Source: Gemmataceae bacterium
GTDB lineage: Bacteria; Planctomycetota; Planctomycetia; Gemmatales; Gemmataceae
DNA: 64,000 nucleotides
Assembly: GCA_009697105.1 (NCBI GenBank)
Contig: SIAQ01000009.1
Location: 1 to 64,000 of the forward strand
Direction of reading: 5' to 3'
In this document: positions 4,829 to 43,233 of the stretch, piece by piece
Position numbering within the stretch: position 1 is the stretch's first letter
Layout of the letters: each line of letters opens with the position of its first letter
Position numbers and translations under genes: made by a program
The notes under the pieces: model-generated
Database searches by the model: none
What the model saw: only the letters and a program-made list of their open reading frames with translations
Told to the model about the DNA's origin: nothing

Positions 4829-4895
4829 AAGCCCAGAGGTGAGGTACTCCGAACCTCTGGGATCCCAAGGGTTAGGAGTACCGCACCCTTGGGCT
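4829..4895. repeat. Palindrome family C, complete copy
   Basis: A 67-base imperfect palindrome running aagcccagaggtgaggtact ... ggagtaccgcacccttgggc tt, with a TGGGATCCCA centre. Other copies are at 15474-15540, 34548-34615 and 46137-46217 (with a central insertion), with a split copy at 11752/12193. It separates the ceramidase-like gene from the divergent redoxin gene. Confidence 0.9.
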
Positions 4896-12193: not shown

Positions 12194-12272
12194 TTGTGCC
12201 CTTTGCTCTTTTCGGATCACACATAATCTAACACCACAGCATCACCTCGGACCTCACAGCAAAGGATTGTTC

Positions 12273-14489
12273 ATGAAGCGGACCCATTTCTGGCTCATCG
12301 CCTTCAGTGTATTTTTCCTGGCCATCACCGCAGCATCGGCGGGGCAGCGTTCTGTCGCTGAACTGATCGGCGAGCTAAAGAAGGCCGACGCCGAAAAGTA
12401 CAAAGCGATGGACGAGCTTGCCACGCTTGGAGAAAAAGCCGCCTTGGCAGTGCCGGCACTCGTCGATCTGCTGCCCAGTAAAAGCGAGGATATCCGCCTG
12501 AACGCGACGATCACGCTGGGCAAAATCGGCAAACCCTCGGTTGCGCCATTGACTAAAGCGCTAGCCTCGACCGATGCGGATGTTCGCTTCTACGCGGCTT
12601 GGGGCCTGGCATTCGTCGGCGCGCCAGCGAAAAGTGCCACGGCGGAAATCATCAAGGCCCTCGGCGATCCCGCGGCCCAGGTGCGGCGCAAAGCGGCCTT
12701 CGCGCTCGGGCGTATCGATCCCGATCCTGACGCGGTCGCTCCCGCTCTCGTGTCCGCCATGAACGATGTCGACGCCGATGTGCGCGAGACCGCCGCCAAG
12801 GCCGTGCCCGGACTCGGCAAAGCCGCCGTGCCCGCGCTCATCAAGGCGATGAACACCGACAAACCGAATCAACGCACGCTGGCCGTCAAGACGCTGGGCG
12901 ATATCGGCAGCGCCGCCGCGCCGGCGATACCGGAGTTGGAAAAACTTCTGAAGCATGGTGACCAGGGCCTAGTTTCTCTCACTGCCGAGATGCTCGGCAG
13001 CATCGGCGCGGCATCGATTCCGACGTTGAAGACCGCCGCCGATGATGCCGATGCCAGCGTCCGTGCCGCCGGCCTGCGTGGCCTCACGAAGGTCGGCGGG
13101 CCGGCGATTCCCGTTATGCTCGACCTGCTCGGCTCCAAGCATGTTGAGGTTCGTCGCCACATCTCGGGCACGGTGTCCCATCTCAACGTGCAAGATAAGT
13201 CGATCGTCATCGCTCTCGGTTTTGCCACCAAGGACACCGATTTCCAGGTTCGCAAGAATGCTCTTCAATCGCTACGCGACATGGGCACGGGCGCCAAACT
13301 TGCCGAGCCTTATGTCGTTGCCCTCCTGGTTGACATCGACTCGGTAATTCGCGTGGATGCCTTTCACGTGCTGGTATCGATCGGCGTCGATCCGCAACCC
13401 GGCCTGAAGATGGCACTGAGCACCGGCGATCTGAAAACCCGCATCAACACCGCGAGTCTGATGACTCAGCTAAATATCGAGGTCGCGCTTGCGGAGCCGA
13501 TCTTGCTTGATGGCCTGAAGCAAGAAGACCCATCGCTCAAGATGCAAGCTGCCCATGCCCTGTCGTTGCGCGGTTTGCAACAGGACGCGGTGTTGCCGAT
13601 CTTCATCGCCGGGCTGAAGAACAAGGTCCCGAGTGTAAGGCGACAAGCGGCGGAATCGATCGCTCGCTACGGCGCGAAAGGCCGACAAGCCGCGCCTGAG
13701 CTTATTGCCGCCCTCGATGATCCCGATGACAGCGTTAGTGCTCAATCGTTGGCGGCGCTGCGCCAGGTCGGCGAGGACCCTCGCAAACTGCTGCCGGCCA
13801 TGTTCAAGGTGCTTCGCCGTAAGGATGCGAGCTTGTATGCCGCCGCTGCCCAAATCGTATTCCAGGTCGGACCCGAATCGCCCGGCGAACTCATCAAGAT
13901 GCTCGATTCCGACGATGCGCCCGGCATCCGCCTCACTTGTCTGCAAGTGCTTTCAACAATCGGCCCACCGGCGAAAGCCGGTGTCGGCGCAATGATCAAG
14001 GCACTTGAAGATCCCTCGCCACGCGTGCGCATGACGGCGGCGCGAGCGCTCGGCAACATCGGCCCGGACGCGAAGTCAGCGATCGAGCCGTTGCAGAAGG
14101 CGTTCAAAGATTCCGACGCCAACGTGCAGAGCATTGCCAAGGCAGCCGTCACGCAGATCCAGGCTGACCCAAACCGCAAGATATTTGAGGTTGCAGGCGT
14201 GCTGACGACGCAAGACCCGTTTGATGAAGCTCGTCAACGTCAGCACGCCGTCGTGCATACGATTCACATGAAAAAAGGCCAACGCTATCAACTCGACCTG
14301 CGTTCGGGTTGGGACAATTATCTGCGGTTAGAAAATGCGCAAGGCGTGCAACTTGCGCAAGACGACGACGGCGGCGGGTTCCCGAACGCTCGCATCGTCT
14401 TCGTGCCGCCAACCGACGGCTTCTACCGCATCATTGTCACCAGTTTCAGCGGCGGCGCCAATGGGCCGTACACGCTGACGGTGCAGTAA
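12273..14489 (+). CDS. Secreted HEAT-repeat protein with C-terminal PPC-like domain
   Basis: A 738-residue protein with a signal peptide (HFWLIAFSVFFLAITAASA). Sixteen or more HEAT/PBS-lyase-like helical repeats follow (residues ~30-620), seen as recurring D..VR..AA.ALG.IG and AVPALI.A. patterns. The last ~100 residues (FEVAGVLTTQDPFDE, then HMKKGQRYQLDL, NYLRLENAQGVQLAQDDDGG, FYRIIVTSFSGGANGPYTLTV) form a pre-peptidase C-terminal-like beta-sandwich. It is probably a periplasmic or surface scaffold that binds other proteins. AAAGGA at 12261 with ATG at 12273 fixes the start. No operon partner. Confidence 0.88.
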   Translation: MKRTHFWLIAFSVFFLAITAASAGQRSVAELIGELKKADAEKYKAMDELATLGEKAALAVPALVDLLPSKSEDIRLNATITLGKIGKPSVAPLTKALASTDADVRFYAAWGLAFVGAPAKSATAEIIKALGDPAAQVRRKAAFALGRIDPDPDAVAPALVSAMNDVDADVRETAAKAVPGLGKAAVPALIKAMNTDKPNQRTLAVKTLGDIGSAAAPAIPELEKLLKHGDQGLVSLTAEMLGSIGAASIPTLKTAADDADASVRAAGLRGLTKVGGPAIPVMLDLLGSKHVEVRRHISGTVSHLNVQDKSIVIALGFATKDTDFQVRKNALQSLRDMGTGAKLAEPYVVALLVDIDSVIRVDAFHVLVSIGVDPQPGLKMALSTGDLKTRINTASLMTQLNIEVALAEPILLDGLKQEDPSLKMQAAHALSLRGLQQDAVLPIFIAGLKNKVPSVRRQAAESIARYGAKGRQAAPELIAALDDPDDSVSAQSLAALRQVGEDPRKLLPAMFKVLRRKDASLYAAAAQIVFQVGPESPGELIKMLDSDDAPGIRLTCLQVLSTIGPPAKAGVGAMIKALEDPSPRVRMTAARALGNIGPDAKSAIEPLQKAFKDSDANVQSIAKAAVTQIQADPNRKIFEVAGVLTTQDPFDEARQRQHAVVHTIHMKKGQRYQLDLRSGWDNYLRLENAQGVQLAQDDDGGGFPNARIVFVPPTDGFYRIIVTSFSGGANGPYTLTVQ

Positions 14490-14822: not shown

Positions 14823-15569
14823 TCAGTCCACGCCGATCATTGGGCAGATCGTTCGCAACTTGCATTCCTCGCAGTTCGGCTTGCGCGAGGCGCAGACCTG
14901 ACGGCCGTGGAAAATCATGCGATGGCCGAACATAGTCCATTCGTCCTCGGGAATCAATTTCATCAGATCGGACTCAACCTTGACGGGATCGTCGTGCTCG
15001 GTCAGCCCCATGCGGCGCGACAGTCGGCCCACGTGCGTGTCCACGGGGATGCCGGGAATCCCGAAGGCGTTGCCAAGGATGACGTTCGCCGTTTTGCGGC
15101 CCACACCGGGCAGCGGGACGAGCTCCTCCATGGAGCGAGGCACAACGCCTGCGTGCCTGGCGACGAGGTCTTTGCAACACGCTTGAATGTTCTTGGACTT
15201 ATTGCGAAAAAAGCCGGTCGATCGGATGAGCGTTTCCAACTCCGCCAAATCGCATTCCGCAAAAGACAGAGCATCGGGGAATCGCTTGAACAAGGCTGGT
15301 GTTACTTTGTTTACGCGCTCGTCCGTGCATTGCGCGGAGAGTATCGTCGCAACCAAGAGTTCAAGCGGATTGGTGTAATGCAGCGCGCAATGCGCGATGG
15401 GATAACCCTCGGCCAAGAACGCACGGATCTTGACGGCGCGATTGCGGATTTGAGTGGTGCTAATGGGAATGCAGGTCCAGAGGTGAGGTACTCCGAACCC
15501 TTGGGATCCCAGAGATTCGGAGTACCGCACCTCTGGGCTTACGTCAAAATCCACAACTAGCGTAAACAT
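14823..15569 (-). CDS. nth: Endonuclease III
   Basis: DNA glycosylase/AP lyase of base-excision repair that removes oxidised pyrimidines. It has the helix-hairpin-helix LVPLPGVGRKTANVILG with the catalytic Lys, the catalytic Asp in GIPVDTHVGR, and a complete 4Fe-4S motif C-x6-C-x2-C-x5-C at the C-terminus (CASRKPNCEECKLRTIC). The 5' end is odd. The only in-frame ATG (15569) puts ~31 residues encoded by a family C palindrome (15474-15540) in front of the protein. The position where relatives start (before PISTTQIRNRAVKIRAFL) has ATT at 15470-15468. Translation may start at ATT, at a GTG at 15530 inside the repeat, or at 15569; none has a convincing Shine-Dalgarno sequence. The product call is firm, the start is not. 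Confidence 0.9.
   Translation of the reverse strand: MFTLVVDFDVSPEVRYSESLGSQGFGVPHLWTCIPISTTQIRNRAVKIRAFLAEGYPIAHCALHYTNPLELLVATILSAQCTDERVNKVTPALFKRFPDALSFAECDLAELETLIRSTGFFRNKSKNIQACCKDLVARHAGVVPRSMEELVPLPGVGRKTANVILGNAFGIPGIPVDTHVGRLSRRMGLTEHDDPVKVESDLMKLIPEDEWTMFGHRMIFHGRQVCASRKPNCEECKLRTICPMIGVD
15474..15540. repeat. Palindrome family C, overlapping 5' end of nth
   Basis: Same 67-base palindrome as at 4829 and 34548 with the ggatcc centre. It reads in frame into nth with no stop codon, giving ..RYSESLGSQGFGVPHLW.. before the conserved protein. Confidence 0.9.
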
Positions 15570-15590: not shown

Positions 15591-17843
15591 TCAAAGCCCC
15601 CACAAGCCGATGTCGAACGTGATCGCGGCGGTGCGGTAGAGCCACCAGGCACACGAGCGGTATTCGCAATGAATCTTCACGTGCGCCGCCGCCCCGAGCG
15701 CGATGCTTGGATCGGATTTATCCAGATCAATCCCCACAAGGAACACCTGCGATTGGGGCACGAGTTGATTCGGCTGCGACCCCGGTTTGACGGCAACCGG
15801 TCCGCCGCCCTTCGTGGTCAGCTGCGGTGGGATGTTCTTCTCGTCGGTGTTAGGCAGCTCGGCGACCGTGCCCGTCCAGGTTCGGCTGTCATGGCCTTGC
15901 ACGCGGATCGTCGCTTCGATCTTGCCGTTACGCTTTCGGGCGTTGCGGTCGTTCTCCTTGAGAAGCAAGAAATCCGGAGCGCTGATTGGCACAAGTATCC
16001 GAAGCTTCGTCTTTCCCGCGATGCTGCAAAATACCGCCCCTTGTTCGCGATCCCAACGCTTGCCGATCTCGTCGATCGGCGGCAATCCGACGACCACGCC
16101 ATCGCGCGGCGAACGAAGTGTTAATTTCTCCCGTTCGTTTTCCACATGTTTGAGCGATGCCTTGGCCTGGAAATATTCGCTCTCGGCTCGGCTCAAGTGA
16201 TCTTCGATGCTCTTGCGCTGGTTCGGATCGGATTCCTTGCTGATTTGATCCTGGAGAAACTTCCGGATTTTCTCCTTCACGACAATCGCCGAATTCACTT
16301 GCTCGCGCTGGTTCTCCAGATCGGGACTCGTGAAGCGCGCGAGTTCCTTGCCTTTCTTCACTTCCTGACCTTCCTTGACGAGCAACTCCGTCAGGTTGCC
16401 GGCGACATCGATCGTCACATGCGTGATCTCTGTCGGTTGCGTCTGCACGAAACCGTGCTGGCGGATGCGCGTGACGGGCAGGGGTACGAAGAAGACGGCG
16501 AACAGCAGGACCGCGACCACGCAAGCGCTGCTCGTAACACGAAGCGGTTTCATATCGGGTAGCCTCCCTCGTTTCTTGACGTTGGTAATCATGCGATAGA
16601 TCGGCCAACCGATCATCGACGCGAACGCGCCGATCGCCAGGAGTTCGCTGACAACCTCGAGTTTGTACGGTTTTAGGAATGTCGCCATGAAGGTCAAAAT
16701 GACAAACGTGACGATCCATTTGTAGAAATAGCTCACGATGGCGAAGGTAGTAAACAGGATTTTTCGCCAAAGCTCCATATAGCCTTCGGGCGGCGCTTCG
16801 ATGCCGAGGAACCAGTCCATGGCGAGGTTTTGCAGGTAGCGATTGGCGCGGTCACGCAGGTTCGGGATCTCGATCCAGTCAGCAAGCACGTAGTAACCGT
16901 CGTAGCGCATGAGCGGATTGCCGTTGAACATTACGGTGCTGACGGAGCAGACGACCATGAGGTTGAGGCAGAGGTTGTTGAGGAACGGCTGGTTGGGCGT
17001 GTTCCACCAGATGAACGTCGCCGCTGCCGCGATCATCAATTCCACATAGATGCCGGCGGCGCTGATGATGATGCGGTGCCATTTGCCGGGCAGCCGCCAG
17101 GCGTCGGAGACGTTGCAATACATCGCCGGTGAAAAACAGAGCAGCAAGAAGCCCATCTCGTGCACTTCGCCGTTGAACGCCTTGCAACTCAGGCCGTGGC
17201 CGAACTCGTGGATCACTTTGACTACGCCAAGCGCAACCCAGAGGTAGATCATGTTTTTGAAGTTGAAGTAGCTCTCGAACGTCGGCAGCCGGGCGTAGAA
17301 AACGTCGAACTTCGTCAGCACGAGTGCGAGGGCGGCTCCCATGAACGCCAGGCTCGCCAACAAAAATAGCCGGGTGAACATCCACCATAGGTAGGGCAGC
17401 ATGAGGGTCAGCAGACGATCCGGATCGAAGATCGGCAGCTTGATGTAGAGGATATTCGTCAGCGTCTGCATCCATTCGGAGCGGATGCGTTTTTGGCGAT
17501 TGTCGTAGAGTTGCTTGCCGGCCTGGGGCGATTCATTTTGCACGAGGCCCATCTTGAGCAACTGCTGGCCGAACTGCTCGAGGTCTTCAAGCCGCAGCCG
17601 TTCCGGGCGGAATTGCGTCTCGAATGCCTTCTGTGCGTCATCGAGTGTGTGCTCGCCGTCCATCAGCGAGATCAGGAAATACTCCTGCTCCTTGAAGCGA
17701 TAGTAGCGCAGGCTTACCGGGTCTTTGACGACGTAGTAGCTTCGGCCTTCGTAGCGCTGGGGCACGATGGTCAGGTCGGGCCGACGCCGCAAGCGGACGA
17801 GCTTGCGACGTTCCGTTTCACTTGATGGCGCGGTGTTCTGCAT
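15591..17843 (-). CDS. PqqD-like/M50 site-2-protease/HlyD fusion membrane protein
   Basis: A 750-residue polytopic protein with three parts. Residues ~20-110 form a PqqD-like winged domain (LRRRPDLTIVPQRYEG, then YYRFKEQEYFLISLMDGEHT). Residues ~140-460 form an M50/site-2-protease membrane core with zinc ligands HEFGH (212-216) and Asp315 in NPLMRYDGYYVLAD. Residues ~470-750 form an HlyD-type periplasmic adaptor with a biotinyl-lipoyl half (VTIDVAGNLTELLVKEGQEV), a coiled coil and a second half motif (TLRSPRDGVVVGLPP). The order resembles YydH/NHLM-type peptide zinc metalloprotease proteins. It is the last gene of a three-gene set (22282 to 15591) whose other members also carry HlyD parts. 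Likely role: processing plus export or relay of a peptide or membrane substrate; the substrate is unknown. Confidence 0.88.
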   Translation of the reverse strand: MQNTAPSSETERRKLVRLRRRPDLTIVPQRYEGRSYYVVKDPVSLRYYRFKEQEYFLISLMDGEHTLDDAQKAFETQFRPERLRLEDLEQFGQQLLKMGLVQNESPQAGKQLYDNRQKRIRSEWMQTLTNILYIKLPIFDPDRLLTLMLPYLWWMFTRLFLLASLAFMGAALALVLTKFDVFYARLPTFESYFNFKNMIYLWVALGVVKVIHEFGHGLSCKAFNGEVHEMGFLLLCFSPAMYCNVSDAWRLPGKWHRIIISAAGIYVELMIAAAATFIWWNTPNQPFLNNLCLNLMVVCSVSTVMFNGNPLMRYDGYYVLADWIEIPNLRDRANRYLQNLAMDWFLGIEAPPEGYMELWRKILFTTFAIVSYFYKWIVTFVILTFMATFLKPYKLEVVSELLAIGAFASMIGWPIYRMITNVKKRGRLPDMKPLRVTSSACVVAVLLFAVFFVPLPVTRIRQHGFVQTQPTEITHVTIDVAGNLTELLVKEGQEVKKGKELARFTSPDLENQREQVNSAIVVKEKIRKFLQDQISKESDPNQRKSIEDHLSRAESEYFQAKASLKHVENEREKLTLRSPRDGVVVGLPPIDEIGKRWDREQGAVFCSIAGKTKLRILVPISAPDFLLLKENDRNARKRNGKIEATIRVQGHDSRTWTGTVAELPNTDEKNIPPQLTTKGGGPVAVKPGSQPNQLVPQSQVFLVGIDLDKSDPSIALGAAAHVKIHCEYRSCAWWLYRTAAITFDIGLWGL

Positions 17844-17874
17844 GGGTCACATGGGATTTTGAATGTACATTGTG

Positions 17875-17928
17875 CCGCTTGCGGCTTAGCGCTCAGCATG
17901 TCGCACTTGGGCGCTAAGCCGCAAGCGG
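17875..17928. repeat. Intergenic inverted repeat (family A)
   Basis: Perfect 18-base arms (ccgcttgcggcttagcgc / gcgctaagccgcaagcgg) and an 18-base loop, in the gap between the WD40-HlyD gene and the M50 gene. If transcribed with the triad it would form a strong hairpin between cistrons. Confidence 0.9.
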
Positions 17929-17938
17929 AAAACAGGCA

Positions 17939-20032
17939 TCACTCAATCACGATCGTTACCGGACGCCCGACTTCGAAGCGTCCGTTGGGGTAGCGGTCCG
18001 AGACGGGATTGGGAACTTCAAACCCGATTCGACTCATCTTCGTCGCATGGTCGAGAGAGTGCGTTCGCAGCGTCAATGGCACGTCAGGGATGCGCTGCGA
18101 ACCGACCTCGGCCACGGTTGGGATGTTCCAGAGGTACACAATCGAACCCGACGCGGAGACGGCGAATGAGTTCGTCCCGCCTTTGCCTGCGTCGGGTGAG
18201 AAGGCGGCGCAGGACACGGTCTGCTTGTCGCGAGGCGCGAATTGGCGGACCTCGAAGCCATGCTCATTGCCTTCCGGCGCTCGCCAAAGTTGTAAGCGTC
18301 CCTCGGCGACGCCTGCGGTCAGCATCAGCGAGCCATCGGGCGAAAACTTCGCCAGCGCATCAAACGGCGTTGCTCCCGCAGCCATACTGACCGTGTGCAC
18401 CAGTTTCCGCTCCTCCACCGACATCAACCACAGCGTGCGATCCTTGTCGAACAGCATCCATCGGCCATCAGGACTTACACCGAGGTCGCCAACGTTGCCC
18501 TGGCGATCATGTACCGGTTCGCCGTCGGCAAAGGCGCCTTTCTCTTTCAAATGCCAAACGCGCACCGATTTGTCGCGCGACGAGGAAACCAGTCGGCATT
18601 GCGGCGTGAAGTGTAACGACGTGACGGCGTCCTCGTGGCCTTGGGCCACGCCGTGAGCCGGGATAAAGCTGTACAACGGCGTCAGCGTGTTCTCGATTTT
18701 CCAGAGCTTGATCGACCCGTCGTGGGCGCCGCTTGCCAACAACTTGCCATTCTGGCTGATCGCCAGGCTCGTGATCGCGACGTCGTCGCCGTGTTTGACG
18801 GCGGGTTTCGCCTTTTGTTTGTCCTGATTGTCGAGATCCCACACATAGAGATTGCCTTTCGCGCAGCCAGCGATGGCGAGATTCCGCTCGGCGGCCTTTG
18901 GCGTGCATACAACGACACGCATCGGGTCCGGGTGCACATACATCCGCAGCGGCGCGCGATCCATCGGCCGGAACACGCACACCGATTTGTCTTCGCTTGC
19001 CGACACGATGTGAAAATCCCGCGCGACGGCCACGCTGTGGATTTCGCCGCGATGTCCGAACATCTCGTTTTGCGAACCTTCGATGATCGTCGGTTCGATC
19101 GTCGCCGTGATCTGCTTGCGTGATTGCAGACGCAGGTAATCGGGTTCCTCGATCATCGCCTCGGCCATGAGACGTTCGAGGTTCTGTACGACCAGAACGG
19201 TCGGGTTCTGTTGCTGCACAAAGGCACCGGTTTGGCGGACGATCGACTTGATCGTGAAATGCTTGTACGGGAGGAACGCGCGAAGCTCGTGCTGGCGCAG
19301 CCGGATGGCGGCCAAATCCTTCTCGTTATTCGCGAGCCTGACGGCTCCTTGCTTCGTGATGTGTTCACTTTCGAGCTTGATCTTCGTCAACTTAGCGCCG
19401 CCCAGCGCTTCGGCATTACCGGCCTTCTGATCGAAAAGAATTTTCTCGCGAATGTATCGATCGTGCCCTTCCTTGGCGGCGGCGGCGGCGGCGACGGCCT
19501 CGACCTCGGCGACGCCGATCTTTTCGATTTTGTCCACCACGTAGCCCAATGCTTCTGACGGGTCGATCATCGCCAGCATCTGCCCATGGTGCGCGGTTTG
19601 GCCTTCGTAATAACGGCGATAGAACTTCGTGTACGAGCTTCGGCCACCGTAAATCGGCGGCGTCGAGGAGTACGGTTCCGCCAAAAATGGCGTCGATCCT
19701 GCCGCGAGAACGGCGCTGTCGCTGACCTGATCGCCGATAAACAGCACCCGGCCCGGAACCGGGCTAGGGACTTCTTCCATTTCGATGGCGTTCATCGTGC
19801 CCACCACGGGAATCGGATTGCTTTGACCCCGCGTCGGCGGCACGATAGTCGGGTATGGGTCGGCGGTGTAGAGGTCTTTCCCCAACGTCGTGGGATCGGC
19901 AACCTCAATTGCGCCGATTTGGCCGACGTTTTTCGGATTTGTGACCGAAGTCTGATCGAGCAGGCCAAGTTGCCATGCAATCACAAGAAACAATCCCGCG
20001 CCGAGCGCGACGATGAAAAGTATGCGGAACAT
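17939..20032 (-). CDS. HlyD-type adaptor fused to WD40 propeller
   Basis: A 697-residue protein with an N-terminal signal anchor (FRILFIVALGAGLFLVIAW). A membrane-fusion-protein part (~80-310) has a lipoyl-like half (EVPSPVPGRVLFIGDQVSD), an Ala/Glu-rich helical hairpin (~165-250) and a second half ending FVQQQNPTVLVVQNLERL. A WD40 propeller (~320-650) has blades such as GHRGEIHSVAVA, ISQNGKLLASGAHDGSIKLW, GHEDAVTSLHFTP and SSSRDKSVRVWHL. The C-terminal ~40 residues return to adaptor-like strands. Its anchor places the propeller outside the cytoplasmic membrane. It is the middle gene of the triad, 110 bases before the M50 fusion gene. The HlyD-WD40 pairing implies that the adaptor itself carries a large docking platform. 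Role inferred, not known. Confidence 0.85.
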   Translation of the reverse strand: MFRILFIVALGAGLFLVIAWQLGLLDQTSVTNPKNVGQIGAIEVADPTTLGKDLYTADPYPTIVPPTRGQSNPIPVVGTMNAIEMEEVPSPVPGRVLFIGDQVSDSAVLAAGSTPFLAEPYSSTPPIYGGRSSYTKFYRRYYEGQTAHHGQMLAMIDPSEALGYVVDKIEKIGVAEVEAVAAAAAAKEGHDRYIREKILFDQKAGNAEALGGAKLTKIKLESEHITKQGAVRLANNEKDLAAIRLRQHELRAFLPYKHFTIKSIVRQTGAFVQQQNPTVLVVQNLERLMAEAMIEEPDYLRLQSRKQITATIEPTIIEGSQNEMFGHRGEIHSVAVARDFHIVSASEDKSVCVFRPMDRAPLRMYVHPDPMRVVVCTPKAAERNLAIAGCAKGNLYVWDLDNQDKQKAKPAVKHGDDVAITSLAISQNGKLLASGAHDGSIKLWKIENTLTPLYSFIPAHGVAQGHEDAVTSLHFTPQCRLVSSSRDKSVRVWHLKEKGAFADGEPVHDRQGNVGDLGVSPDGRWMLFDKDRTLWLMSVEERKLVHTVSMAAGATPFDALAKFSPDGSLMLTAGVAEGRLQLWRAPEGNEHGFEVRQFAPRDKQTVSCAAFSPDAGKGGTNSFAVSASGSIVYLWNIPTVAEVGSQRIPDVPLTLRTHSLDHATKMSRIGFEVPNPVSDRYPNGRFEVGRPVTIVIE

Positions 20033-20099
20033 AGGAGACCTCGCTGGAAGAAGGATACATCGAGAACGACCCGGAAGTGTAGGCGACGGTTTGCACTGA

Positions 20100-20135
20100 T
20101 CGGTCGTTTACGCTTCCGGCTCGTAATACGACTTT
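20100..20135. repeat. Palindrome family B, single arm
   Basis: The stretch gatcggtcgtttacgcttcc ggctcgtaat matches the right arm of the family B palindromes at 22456 and 43158. A degenerate left arm (tgtaggcgacgg) is at 20078. It lies between the first two genes of the triad. Confidence 0.6.
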
Positions 20136-20155
20136 GGTTGTGCGCGTCAGGTTTT

Positions 20156-22282
20156 TCACGTGAACGGGAAGATCACTTTTTCGAAGAGGAATTCCCAGAC
20201 GCCGTAGAAGAGCGAGTAGCCCATCGCGCGGTTGCCGCAACGGATGCGCGTGCTGACTTCGGTACCGGTGATGAGTCGCCCGGCGGGCATGCGGTCGTCC
20301 TCGGGGATGTCGTTGCCGTCGAGGCGAACCCAGGCCATGACGACGGCCTCGGCTTCGTCGTTGCTGTCTTTTTGATTGTTTGCTTGAAAAGCGATCTTAT
20401 CGCGGCGGATCCTGCCCCGATAGGAACGCCACGGCTCGGTCTTGAGCATGATGTCCACGTCGAGTTCGGTATTCGCGGGCAGGGATTCAAACGCTCGCAG
20501 GATTTGGCCGATGTGCTTTTGCGGAATCTTCAGTTCGACCTCCCAGTCCGAAATCTTCGGCCTCCTCGGATCGGTAAAGCCGATGCGAATGAGTGGATCG
20601 CTCGGCTTTACCTGGCGACCGAGAAGGTTCTCGCGAAAATCGGCGCTGAGAATGATGCCGGCGCGCGGCGAGTTGATGTAGTAGTATCCCGGCTTGGTTG
20701 GATGGGCGTTGGTTCGGTTCTTCAAATCTTCGAGCATCCTGATGCTCTGCTCACGTTTTACGCGGGCCTCAAACGCGGTGATGCCGTCCATGCCACGGCC
20801 TTCGCCGCCCTCGCCCATACGCTGCGCGAGGGGATTGATTTTGTTGGCCAGGGCGTCGATTTCGCCTTGAAGCTCGCGGATCCGCTTTTCGAGATCGGAG
20901 TCGAACATCGTTAAGAGGGCCTTGCCTTTGGTTACTTCGGTGCCCGAAGCGAGGCCGGACATGACGTCCTCGACTTTCCCAGTGATCGGTGAAAAGACCC
21001 AAATGCGATTCTTGGGCAGGGCCGTGCCGCTGGCGTCCATCTTGAGCGGGAAGGGGATGAGAATTAGGGCGAGAATGAGAATGGCGACACCCGTCAGCGA
21101 CAGCGCGGTGATCGCCTTGGCTTTGCCGCCCAGCCCGTCTTGCAGATAAGCCAGCGGCAGCCAAATGAAGCGCATCGGGATGCGCTGATATTCGAGCGCG
21201 TTGTAGAGGGCCGGGCAGGCATGGCGGCCGACCACGTCGAGTCGAGCTTGCAGTTGCTCCGTTGCCAGGACGGTCTCGAAACATTCCATCATCAATGCGG
21301 AGCGGGCGGGCTTCTTGCTCCCCTTGTCACGTTCATCTTGCAGCGGCGCGATGACGAGAATCTTGCTGTTGCTTTCCGCCAAGTAAGCGTCTAGGCTCTT
21401 CAGAACCTTGGGAGGCAAGGTTCCGTCCAGCGTGCCGGTGTAGACGAGTCGCTCGCCCCATTCGATGACCGAATCGAAGAGTTTGCGCATGAGCTGCACG
21501 AGGTTCGAGCGTTTCTCGACGATATCGGCGCCGCTGATGGCGCTGACCTGGCACTTGTCCGAGCTGCGCGTCGCCACGCTGACGCGATCGACTTCGATGA
21601 GGCGACGCGCTTCATTGGCGATGAGGTATGCGACCTCGGTAAGATTGAGGCTGTTGTGAATTTGCCGCGTGAACGTTTCGAGCTTCAGCCAAAGCTCCTG
21701 TTGACCGACCATTTGGCGGAGTTGATGGTTGCGCAAGAAGAGCGAAATGAATCCCACCATGCGAACGACGAACTGGTAAAGGCTTTGCATCGCGTTTGCA
21801 TTGCGGGAAGGATCCTGCCAGAGCTCAACGAGGCCGATGACTTGCTTTTCTTGCAGGATCGGCACAAGGATAATGATGAAGTCGGTGGGGTTGCCGGCGA
21901 CCGAATCGGGGCCATTGGCGGCCTGGCTGTAATGGGGCTTGATGATGCCGCCCTTGCCTTGGGTGATTGCCTGGCGCAGCAACTCGTCATGCATCGGTCG
22001 CGTTTCGGCGTTTTGTTCCAGGCCGACTTCGCGCAGGTTGATTTGGCATTGCAGCTGAAGGTTGCCCTGCGGGGTACGAATCCACACAGCGCCGGCGTGG
22101 GCCTGAGTCGCGAAATAGATGCGCTGCAGAAATTCGCTATACATCTGTGCCGGCGGAATGTCCGACTCGGCGAGGTGGGCGATCTCCTCGGCGACCTGAT
22201 TCACCTGCTTGCGCGCCTGCTCGATCTGCTGCATTTCCAGGGTGTTCGCCGTGCTGCCGGGAGCGATCGGTTCGTTGTTCAT
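20156..22282 (-). CDS. Tandem GAF-like domains fused to HlyD adaptor
   Basis: A 708-residue membrane protein. Residues ~40-190 and ~200-345 are two GAF-like regions (AHAGAVWIRTPQGNLQLQC, then FIIILVPILQEKQVIGLVEL; NEARRLIEVDRVSVATRS). A transmembrane helix spans ~391-413 (ITALSLTGVAILILALILIP). An HlyD part follows with SPITGKVEDVMSGLASGTEV (lipoyl-like), a coiled coil (~460-540) and YYYINSPRAGIILSADF. The GAF domains would be cytoplasmic and the adaptor periplasmic, so the protein could transmit a ligand signal across the membrane to the export machinery. The start at 22282 follows GAGGTCCAAC; an extension to 22378 has no support. It is the first gene of the triad, 123 bases before the WD40-HlyD gene. 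Confidence 0.85.
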   Translation of the reverse strand: MNNEPIAPGSTANTLEMQQIEQARKQVNQVAEEIAHLAESDIPPAQMYSEFLQRIYFATQAHAGAVWIRTPQGNLQLQCQINLREVGLEQNAETRPMHDELLRQAITQGKGGIIKPHYSQAANGPDSVAGNPTDFIIILVPILQEKQVIGLVELWQDPSRNANAMQSLYQFVVRMVGFISLFLRNHQLRQMVGQQELWLKLETFTRQIHNSLNLTEVAYLIANEARRLIEVDRVSVATRSSDKCQVSAISGADIVEKRSNLVQLMRKLFDSVIEWGERLVYTGTLDGTLPPKVLKSLDAYLAESNSKILVIAPLQDERDKGSKKPARSALMMECFETVLATEQLQARLDVVGRHACPALYNALEYQRIPMRFIWLPLAYLQDGLGGKAKAITALSLTGVAILILALILIPFPLKMDASGTALPKNRIWVFSPITGKVEDVMSGLASGTEVTKGKALLTMFDSDLEKRIRELQGEIDALANKINPLAQRMGEGGEGRGMDGITAFEARVKREQSIRMLEDLKNRTNAHPTKPGYYYINSPRAGIILSADFRENLLGRQVKPSDPLIRIGFTDPRRPKISDWEVELKIPQKHIGQILRAFESLPANTELDVDIMLKTEPWRSYRGRIRRDKIAFQANNQKDSNDEAEAVVMAWVRLDGNDIPEDDRMPAGRLITGTEVSTRIRCGNRAMGYSLFYGVWEFLFEKVIFPFT

Positions 22283-22432: not shown

Positions 22433-22455
22433 TTTGTCAACGCTAAGATATCGGG

Positions 22456-22519
22456 TACGAGCCGGAAGCGTAAGCGACGGATGGTCATGCCAGACCGTCG
22501 CTTACGCTTCCGGCTCGTA
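22456..22519. repeat. Palindrome family B, complete
   Basis: Arms of 25 bases, perfect (tacgagccggaagcgtaagc gacgg / complement), loop 14 bases. A near-identical stem is at 43158-43222. It lies in the 22283-22936 gap, which contains no gene. Confidence 0.92.
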
Positions 22520-22531
22520 AACCAAACATCC

Positions 22532-34547: not shown

Positions 34548-34615
34548 AAGCCCAATGGTGAGGTACTCCGAACCGTTGGGATCCCAGAGGTTCGGAGTAC
34601 CTCACCATTGGGCTT
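34548..34615. repeat. Palindrome family C, near-perfect copy
   Basis: The most symmetrical copy: aagcccaatggtgaggtact ccgaaccgttgg GATC ccagaggttcggagtacctc accattgggctt. It lies in the divergent promoter region between the ketosynthase-like gene and the oxoamine synthase. Confidence 0.92.
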
Positions 34616-43146: not shown

Positions 43147-43233
43147 CGACAAAAGTCTTTACGAGCCGGAAGCGTAAGCGACGGATTTCTCCAGCCCGTC
43201 GCTTACGCTTCCGGCTCGTAAAGGCTTTTGTCG
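43147..43233. repeat. Palindrome family B with outer arms
   Basis: The inner stem is as at 22456 (tttacgagccggaagcgtaa gcgacgg / complement). Outer arms cgacaaaagtc / gcttttgtcg extend it to ~87 bases. It starts 50 bases after the mutS stop and may terminate that transcript. The remainder of 43098-43439 has no gene. Confidence 0.9.

Follow-up and report, generated by a model that had tools for sequence, protein, structure and literature searches.

A conserved GAF-HlyD, HlyD-WD40 and PqqD-M50-HlyD gene trio in a Gemmataceae bacterium and its probable role in protein export

Here we describe three neighbouring genes of a Gemmataceae bacterium (GenBank assembly GCA_009697105.1), analysed within a stretch of 64,000 nucleotides of contig SIAQ01000009.1, hereafter the window. 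Genes A, B and C are three intact minus-strand open reading frames, separated by gaps of 123 bases (A-B) and 95 bases (B-C), each of which holds a palindrome. Every one of the three proteins contains an HlyD-type adaptor, fused to tandem GAF domains in A, to a WD40 propeller in B and to a PqqD-like domain plus M50 protease in C. An initial annotation made from the letters alone had read the locus in this way, and the open reading frames, profile matches, structure models and homologues bear it out. The features of the locus are:

20156..22282, minus strand: gene A, 708 aa; tandem GAF domains, one transmembrane helix (residues 391-409) and an HlyD-type adaptor (ORF, Pfam, AlphaFold, Foldseek)
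21809..22153, minus strand: first GAF domain of A, residues 44-158 (Pfam GAF in relatives; AlphaFold)
21263..21643, minus strand: second GAF domain of A, residues 214-340 (model only; no Pfam match)
20225..21055, minus strand: adaptor part of A, residues 410-686, in the order lipoyl domain, short hairpin, beta-barrel (Pfam in relatives, AlphaFold, Foldseek)
20067..20126, no strand: palindrome in gap A-B
17939..20032, minus strand: gene B, 697 aa; N-terminal anchor, adaptor and a WD40 propeller that appears nested in the adaptor beta-barrel (Pfam, hhalign, AlphaFold, VIA-align)
18119..19078, minus strand: seven-bladed WD40 propeller of B, residues 319-638 (VIA-align Z 34.8; Pfam)
17942..18115, minus strand: last barrel strands of B after the propeller, residues 640-697 (hhalign)
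17873..17930, no strand: palindrome in gap B-C
15591..17843, minus strand: gene C, 750 aa; PqqD-like domain, M50 membrane protease and HlyD-type adaptor (ORF, Pfam, NCBIfam, homologues)
17541..17744, minus strand: PqqD-like domain of C, residues 34-101
17196..17210, minus strand: HExxH zinc-site motif of C, residues 212-216 (HEFGH; H, E and H invariant in 25 homologues)
16896..16925, minus strand: third zinc ligand motif of C, NGNPLMRYDG, residues 307-316 (N, N, P, L, R, D and G invariant in 25 homologues)

Two of the Pfam families found in A score below their cut-offs in the window itself, GAF at 21.3 against 22.4 and HlyD_3 just under, and are matched by 28 and 29, respectively, of 31 relatives. 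The AlphaFold model of A (pLDDT 88) contains two GAF folds, and Foldseek with this model returned the GAF modules of PDE5A, PDE6 and phytochromes together with the adaptors EmrA, MacA and MexA. Peptidase_M50 and HlyD_D23 exceed their Pfam cut-offs in C, and RND_mfp was matched in B. The PqqD match is weak in the C protein of the window (E 0.12) and reaches E up to 0.05 in 14 of 25 homologues. Residues 34-403 of C matched the NCBIfam family daptide_HExxH (E 6e-55; 186.9 bits, under the cut-off of 300); YydH/LiaK was matched at E 1.5e-11 (44.5 bits, under the cut-off of 225) and TfuB1 weakly. The transmembrane helix of A sits between its GAF and adaptor parts, and the topology first proposed for the locus, with the GAF side of A in the cytoplasm, the M50 part of C in the membrane and the adaptor parts outside, is supported.

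The WD40 match in B is clear (Pfam E 4e-28, seven blades). The middle gene of many relatives is a plain HlyD adaptor of 285-380 aa, with which B could be aligned up to the barrel by hhalign; the 58 residues past the propeller matched the last barrel strands of this plain adaptor (probability 97%, E 1.3e-10). Alignment of plain B with whole B strayed into the propeller, and deletion of the propeller columns gave an end-to-end alignment. In the AlphaFold model of B (pLDDT 82), strands precede the propeller at residues 278-318 and follow it at 648-696; the chains that VIA-align listed for this model were all propellers. The alignments and the model suggest that the propeller is inserted within the adaptor beta-barrel, an arrangement that appears new. 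Propeller-bearing B was found in the taxonomic order of the window (Gemmatales-type) and in one other family (Pan216-type); B is plain elsewhere.

The trio is conserved across the class Planctomycetia. Homologues of C were found in 56 of 59 relatives, and 33 of 41 loci (the window and 40 retrieved loci) have A, an adaptor gene and C one after another on a single strand; most named Planctomycetia loci in the genome collection records, from Gemmataceae, Isosphaeraceae, Planctomycetaceae and Pirellulaceae, share the order. The flanks are variable, and among the 41 loci there was neither a recurrent ABC, RND, MFS or TolC family adjoining the trio, in agreement with the initial annotation, nor a conserved regulator, sigma factor or anti-sigma gene. 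A conserved exporter beside the trio was rejected as a candidate; the plain adaptor itself is the largest neighbour cluster. In the window, the trio has neither a SecA or TolC gene nor a giant gene beside it. The 740-aa protein encoded near the trio at window positions 12267-14489 consists of repeated alpha-helical (HEAT-like) units, and a gene of like size stands at its place in the closest relative only.

It had at first been suggested that the system might be undescribed. For Planctomycetes, Verrucomicrobia and Proteobacteria, Kamneva et al. 2015 (PMC4452313) had already reported clusters in which genes for GAF-HlyD, HlyD/lipoyl and M50-HlyD proteins accompany a secondary SecA_DEAD gene; they proposed type 1-like secretion, called the biological role "completely unknown" and noted that SecA lies elsewhere for some loci. 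The window and its genome hold the GAF plus HlyD/lipoyl protein, the HlyD/lipoyl adaptor gene (B), the Peptidase_M50-HlyD protein and a secondary SecA_DEAD of the module-linked clade, and the two systems are alike in having no ABC transporter. The trio is a variant of that module, from which it differs in the propeller of B and in its SecA_DEAD gene, which is usually, although not strictly, in the same locus in the 2015 description and is found here on contig C124. The main text of that paper does not contain the word WD40 and names neither PqqD, RTX nor giant cargo. It names an operon of Methylobacterium extorquens AM1, META1p2402-2399. Papers on the Methylobacterium locus tags were searched for and none was found.

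Of the two SecA_DEAD genes in the window's genome, the shorter (SecA2; C124, L178 9366-11513) encodes DEAD, preprotein cross-linking and P-loop domains. When 51 SecAs were placed in a tree, this protein grouped with eight trio-adjacent SecA2s in a Planctomycetia clade of 26 members (94/99), and the canonical SecAs formed a separate clade (100/100). The SecA2 gene stands upstream of A in Pirellulales-type loci and beside C in other classes; outside the class, A and B surround a C-SecA2 pair, the order being C-SecA2-B-A in L228, and L215 shows the contiguous order A-C-OEP/TolC-SecA2-B. The zinc-site motifs and SecA2 are kept across the family. When fragments and split hits are left out of the count, 16 of the 29 C-bearing genomes outside the class have a second SecA_DEAD gene, as against 1 of 77 that lack C (p 2.7e-10, kinship ignored). 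Inside class Planctomycetia the SecA2 profile is uninformative, because C and SecA2 are both nearly universal there. SecA2 is associated with the trio and is not obligatory, since 13 of the 29 C-bearing genomes outside the class lack a second SecA_DEAD gene, as do the Citrobacter locus and one Azospirillum plasmid locus considered below. The single-contig, 99% complete genome G045 likewise carries C and a plain adaptor without a second SecA_DEAD gene, and same-genus genomes have one. The window's genome also encodes several OEP proteins, candidates for a TolC-type partner, none of them linked to the trio. The view of the three genes as self-contained is not supported: in relatives the trio is joined by SecA2 and at times by TolC, and the genome of the window has SecA2 and such OEP genes elsewhere. 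Two further SecA proteins were observed. One, encoded at L210 11157-13106 with C on one side and the adaptor gene on the other, is a strongly diverged SecA_DEAD protein (81 bits); the other, at L225 8185-10098 (G126), is a secondary SecA that adjoins a 733-aa HExxH protein with no C-profile match.

The putative export machine, most of which the trio makes up, is present throughout Planctomycetota and on some proteobacterial plasmids, where homologues of A, B and C occur. Seven of the nine proteobacterial plasmid loci read contain a giant gene; of the other two, one Azospirillum locus has C alone and the Phyllobacterium locus has a 1,412-aa neighbour instead. Giant genes that adjoin the trio or lie within its locus are:

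Pseudosulfitobacter plasmid: giant gene of 38.8 kb adjoining the trio
Mesorhizobium plasmid: giant gene of 31.6 kb adjoining the trio
Citrobacter plasmid: giant gene of 13.4 kb, with TolC, adjoining the trio
Two Azospirillum plasmids: giant genes of 13.0 kb and 10.2 kb, with TolC, adjoining the trio
Rhodobacteraceae M382 and Ensifer plasmids: unannotated giant frames adjoining the trio
G208: giant of 3,899 aa with LEPRILLSA, directly upstream of A and C
G213: giant with LEPRILLTA within the trio locus
G161 and G225: giant gene within the trio locus

All five plasmid giants with readable N-termini carry an LExR motif there (LEPRFLLSA, LEPRLLLSA, LESRQLFDGA and, twice, LEPRFMFDAA), and NCBIfam assigns the first two of these N-termini to LEPR-XLL (NF012209). 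For the two Azospirillum giants, the motif is carried by the frame that immediately precedes the annotated gene. The gene order in the Citrobacter locus and one Azospirillum plasmid locus is giant-TolC-B-A-C. The Citrobacter stretch read (L310, NZ_CP048383.1), which shows no SecA, has a giant Ig-like gene, TolC, two adaptors and M50-HlyD consecutively; C matches similar to that of Citrobacter are also present on E. coli plasmids.

Within Planctomycetota, LEPR-XLL was matched in 20 of 199 genomes. Of the 46 genomes that carry C, 19 have a match, compared with 1 of the 153 that lack it (p = 4e-13, kinship ignored). The gene after C in L132 encodes a cadherin/Ig/dockerin protein with LEPRDLLA, a candidate cargo which also matches Pfam Planc_extracel (PF07595) at the position of the motif, under the cut-off. 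A 2045-aa RTX protein with 14 repeats is encoded upstream of A in L210, and the giant neighbours in L108, L201, L208 and L074 gave no Pfam match. The same-genus genome G001 (L074, C122) has a second A-B(WD40)-C set, and the frame immediately after it, of 2308 aa, carries LEDRCLLSA near its start, the sole such N-terminus in the 218 kb sampled of that genome. Giant surface proteins that appear to share an N-terminal tag, and that lie beside the trio in relatives, point to what the machine would export. For the genome of the window this line of argument stops short, because LEPR-XLL gave no match there at E up to 0.05 and no convincing LExR motif was present in 0.89 Mb of it.

We consider it fairly likely that A, B and C serve as three membrane-fusion adaptors in a protein-export module that is associated with SecA2 and belongs to the type reported by Kamneva et al. 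2015. Such an exporter would span the envelope, and C would recognise and trim a tag. This reading builds on the protein architecture, the zinc-site motifs, the gene order, the presence and ancestry of SecA2, the TolC and giant tagged genes in some relatives' loci and the propeller nested in the adaptor sequence. The cytoplasmic secondary SecA (here unlinked, on contig C124) would engage a long exported protein and, where present, drive its entry. Polytopic C would bind the N-terminal tag (LExRxLL-type in relatives), probably via the PqqD-like domain, and cleave this tag at the membrane. In the periplasm, C, A and B may contribute their adaptor parts to a mixed conduit that leads to an outer-membrane protein of the TolC type; the tandem GAF domains of A could gate assembly or activity from the cytoplasm, and the propeller of B, in the barrel, could offer an extra periplasmic binding surface in Gemmatales. 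The type 1 secretion system (HlyB/HlyD/TolC) shares with these loci the HlyD-type adaptors and, in some relatives, a TolC gene and giant or RTX proteins. It differs in that the trio has no ABC transporter alongside and consists of three different adaptors, two of them fused to cytoplasmic or membrane modules, and in that the candidate signal is N-terminal. More tentatively, with confidence a little short of even, we propose that the M50/three-adaptor module is dedicated to the export of giant surface proteins. LExRxLL (LEPR-XLL, at least partly Planc_extracel) would then be their targeting signal; the PqqD-like domain of C would read it, the M50 part of C would remove it, and SecA2 would be the motor where present.

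Three other readings were weighed against export of tagged giants. Unlikely, although the best placed of them, is a repurposing of the Gemmatales trio, with SecA2 unlinked, a propeller added and no tagged cargo, to serve perhaps as an envelope scaffold or in export by another signal. The restriction of propeller-bearing B to Gemmatales-type and Pan216-type genomes and the want of a LEPR-XLL match in the window's own genome agree with such a change of role, which the zinc-site motifs and SecA2, retained across the family, and the LEDRCLLSA protein behind the second A-B(WD40)-C set of G001 speak against. Less likely again is a membrane signal relay without export, in which the GAF domains sense in the cytoplasm, the M50 protease cuts a membrane-bound regulator, and the adaptors and propeller sense outside. 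M50 proteases frequently act in regulated proteolysis, GAF domains are sensory and an exporter pump is absent beside the trio; a relay would, however, have no conserved regulator, sigma factor or anti-sigma neighbour in the variable flanks, and the TolC gene and giant extracellular-type proteins in relatives' loci would be superfluous to it. The initial annotation had left relay and secretion side by side, and secretion fits better because relatives encode giant candidate cargo in the same locus. Least probable is a RiPP-like maturation and export of peptides, with PqqD-like binding and M50 removal of a leader and export by the adaptors: the PqqD-M50 core of C is homologous to the daptide and YydH-LiaK M50 proteases (NF041824, NF058609) and matches TfuB1 weakly, yet C stays under the NCBIfam cut-offs and has an adaptor at its C-terminus, modification and ABC genes do not recur nearby, relatives have giant genes instead, and the RiPP precursor envisaged earlier found no counterpart, as no small ORF outside the genes was conserved between the window and related loci.

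Export of tagged giants, if true, would constitute a secretion route, either one-step or fed by SecA, that differs from the ABC-driven type 1 route. Its Gemmatales variant would have an adaptor with a periplasmic propeller, and it would be unusual for a membrane-fusion adaptor to be modified by a nested WD40 propeller. The LEPR-XLL link gives a candidate cargo and a candidate signal to a locus that was reported in 2015 without an assigned role. It would explain ABC-free export of proteins of several thousand residues in Planctomycetota and some Proteobacteria, as well as what the LEPR-XLL or planctomycete extracellular motif does. No export machine tied to LEPR-XLL or Planc_extracel was found in the literature searched, and both this link and the nested propeller appear new against the open, formally published papers searched.

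The palindromes in the two gaps, noted in the initial annotation, are real; as regulatory parts they were rejected. They are copies of dispersed repeats outside the system, since 399 half-sites of the gap A-B family and 661 of the gap B-C family occur genome-wide, against 1 and 0 for the reversed-pattern controls. The first family, TTACGAGCCGGAAGCGTAAGCGACGG, has window copies at 20101-20126, 22455-22520 and 43159-43221, and the second, CCGCTTGCGGCTTAGCGC, has one at 17875-17928. A third palindromic family of 40 bases, GGTACTCCGAA..TTCGGAGTACC, occurs in the window at 4843-4882, 15487-15526 and 34562-34601, and one of these three copies lies just downstream of C.
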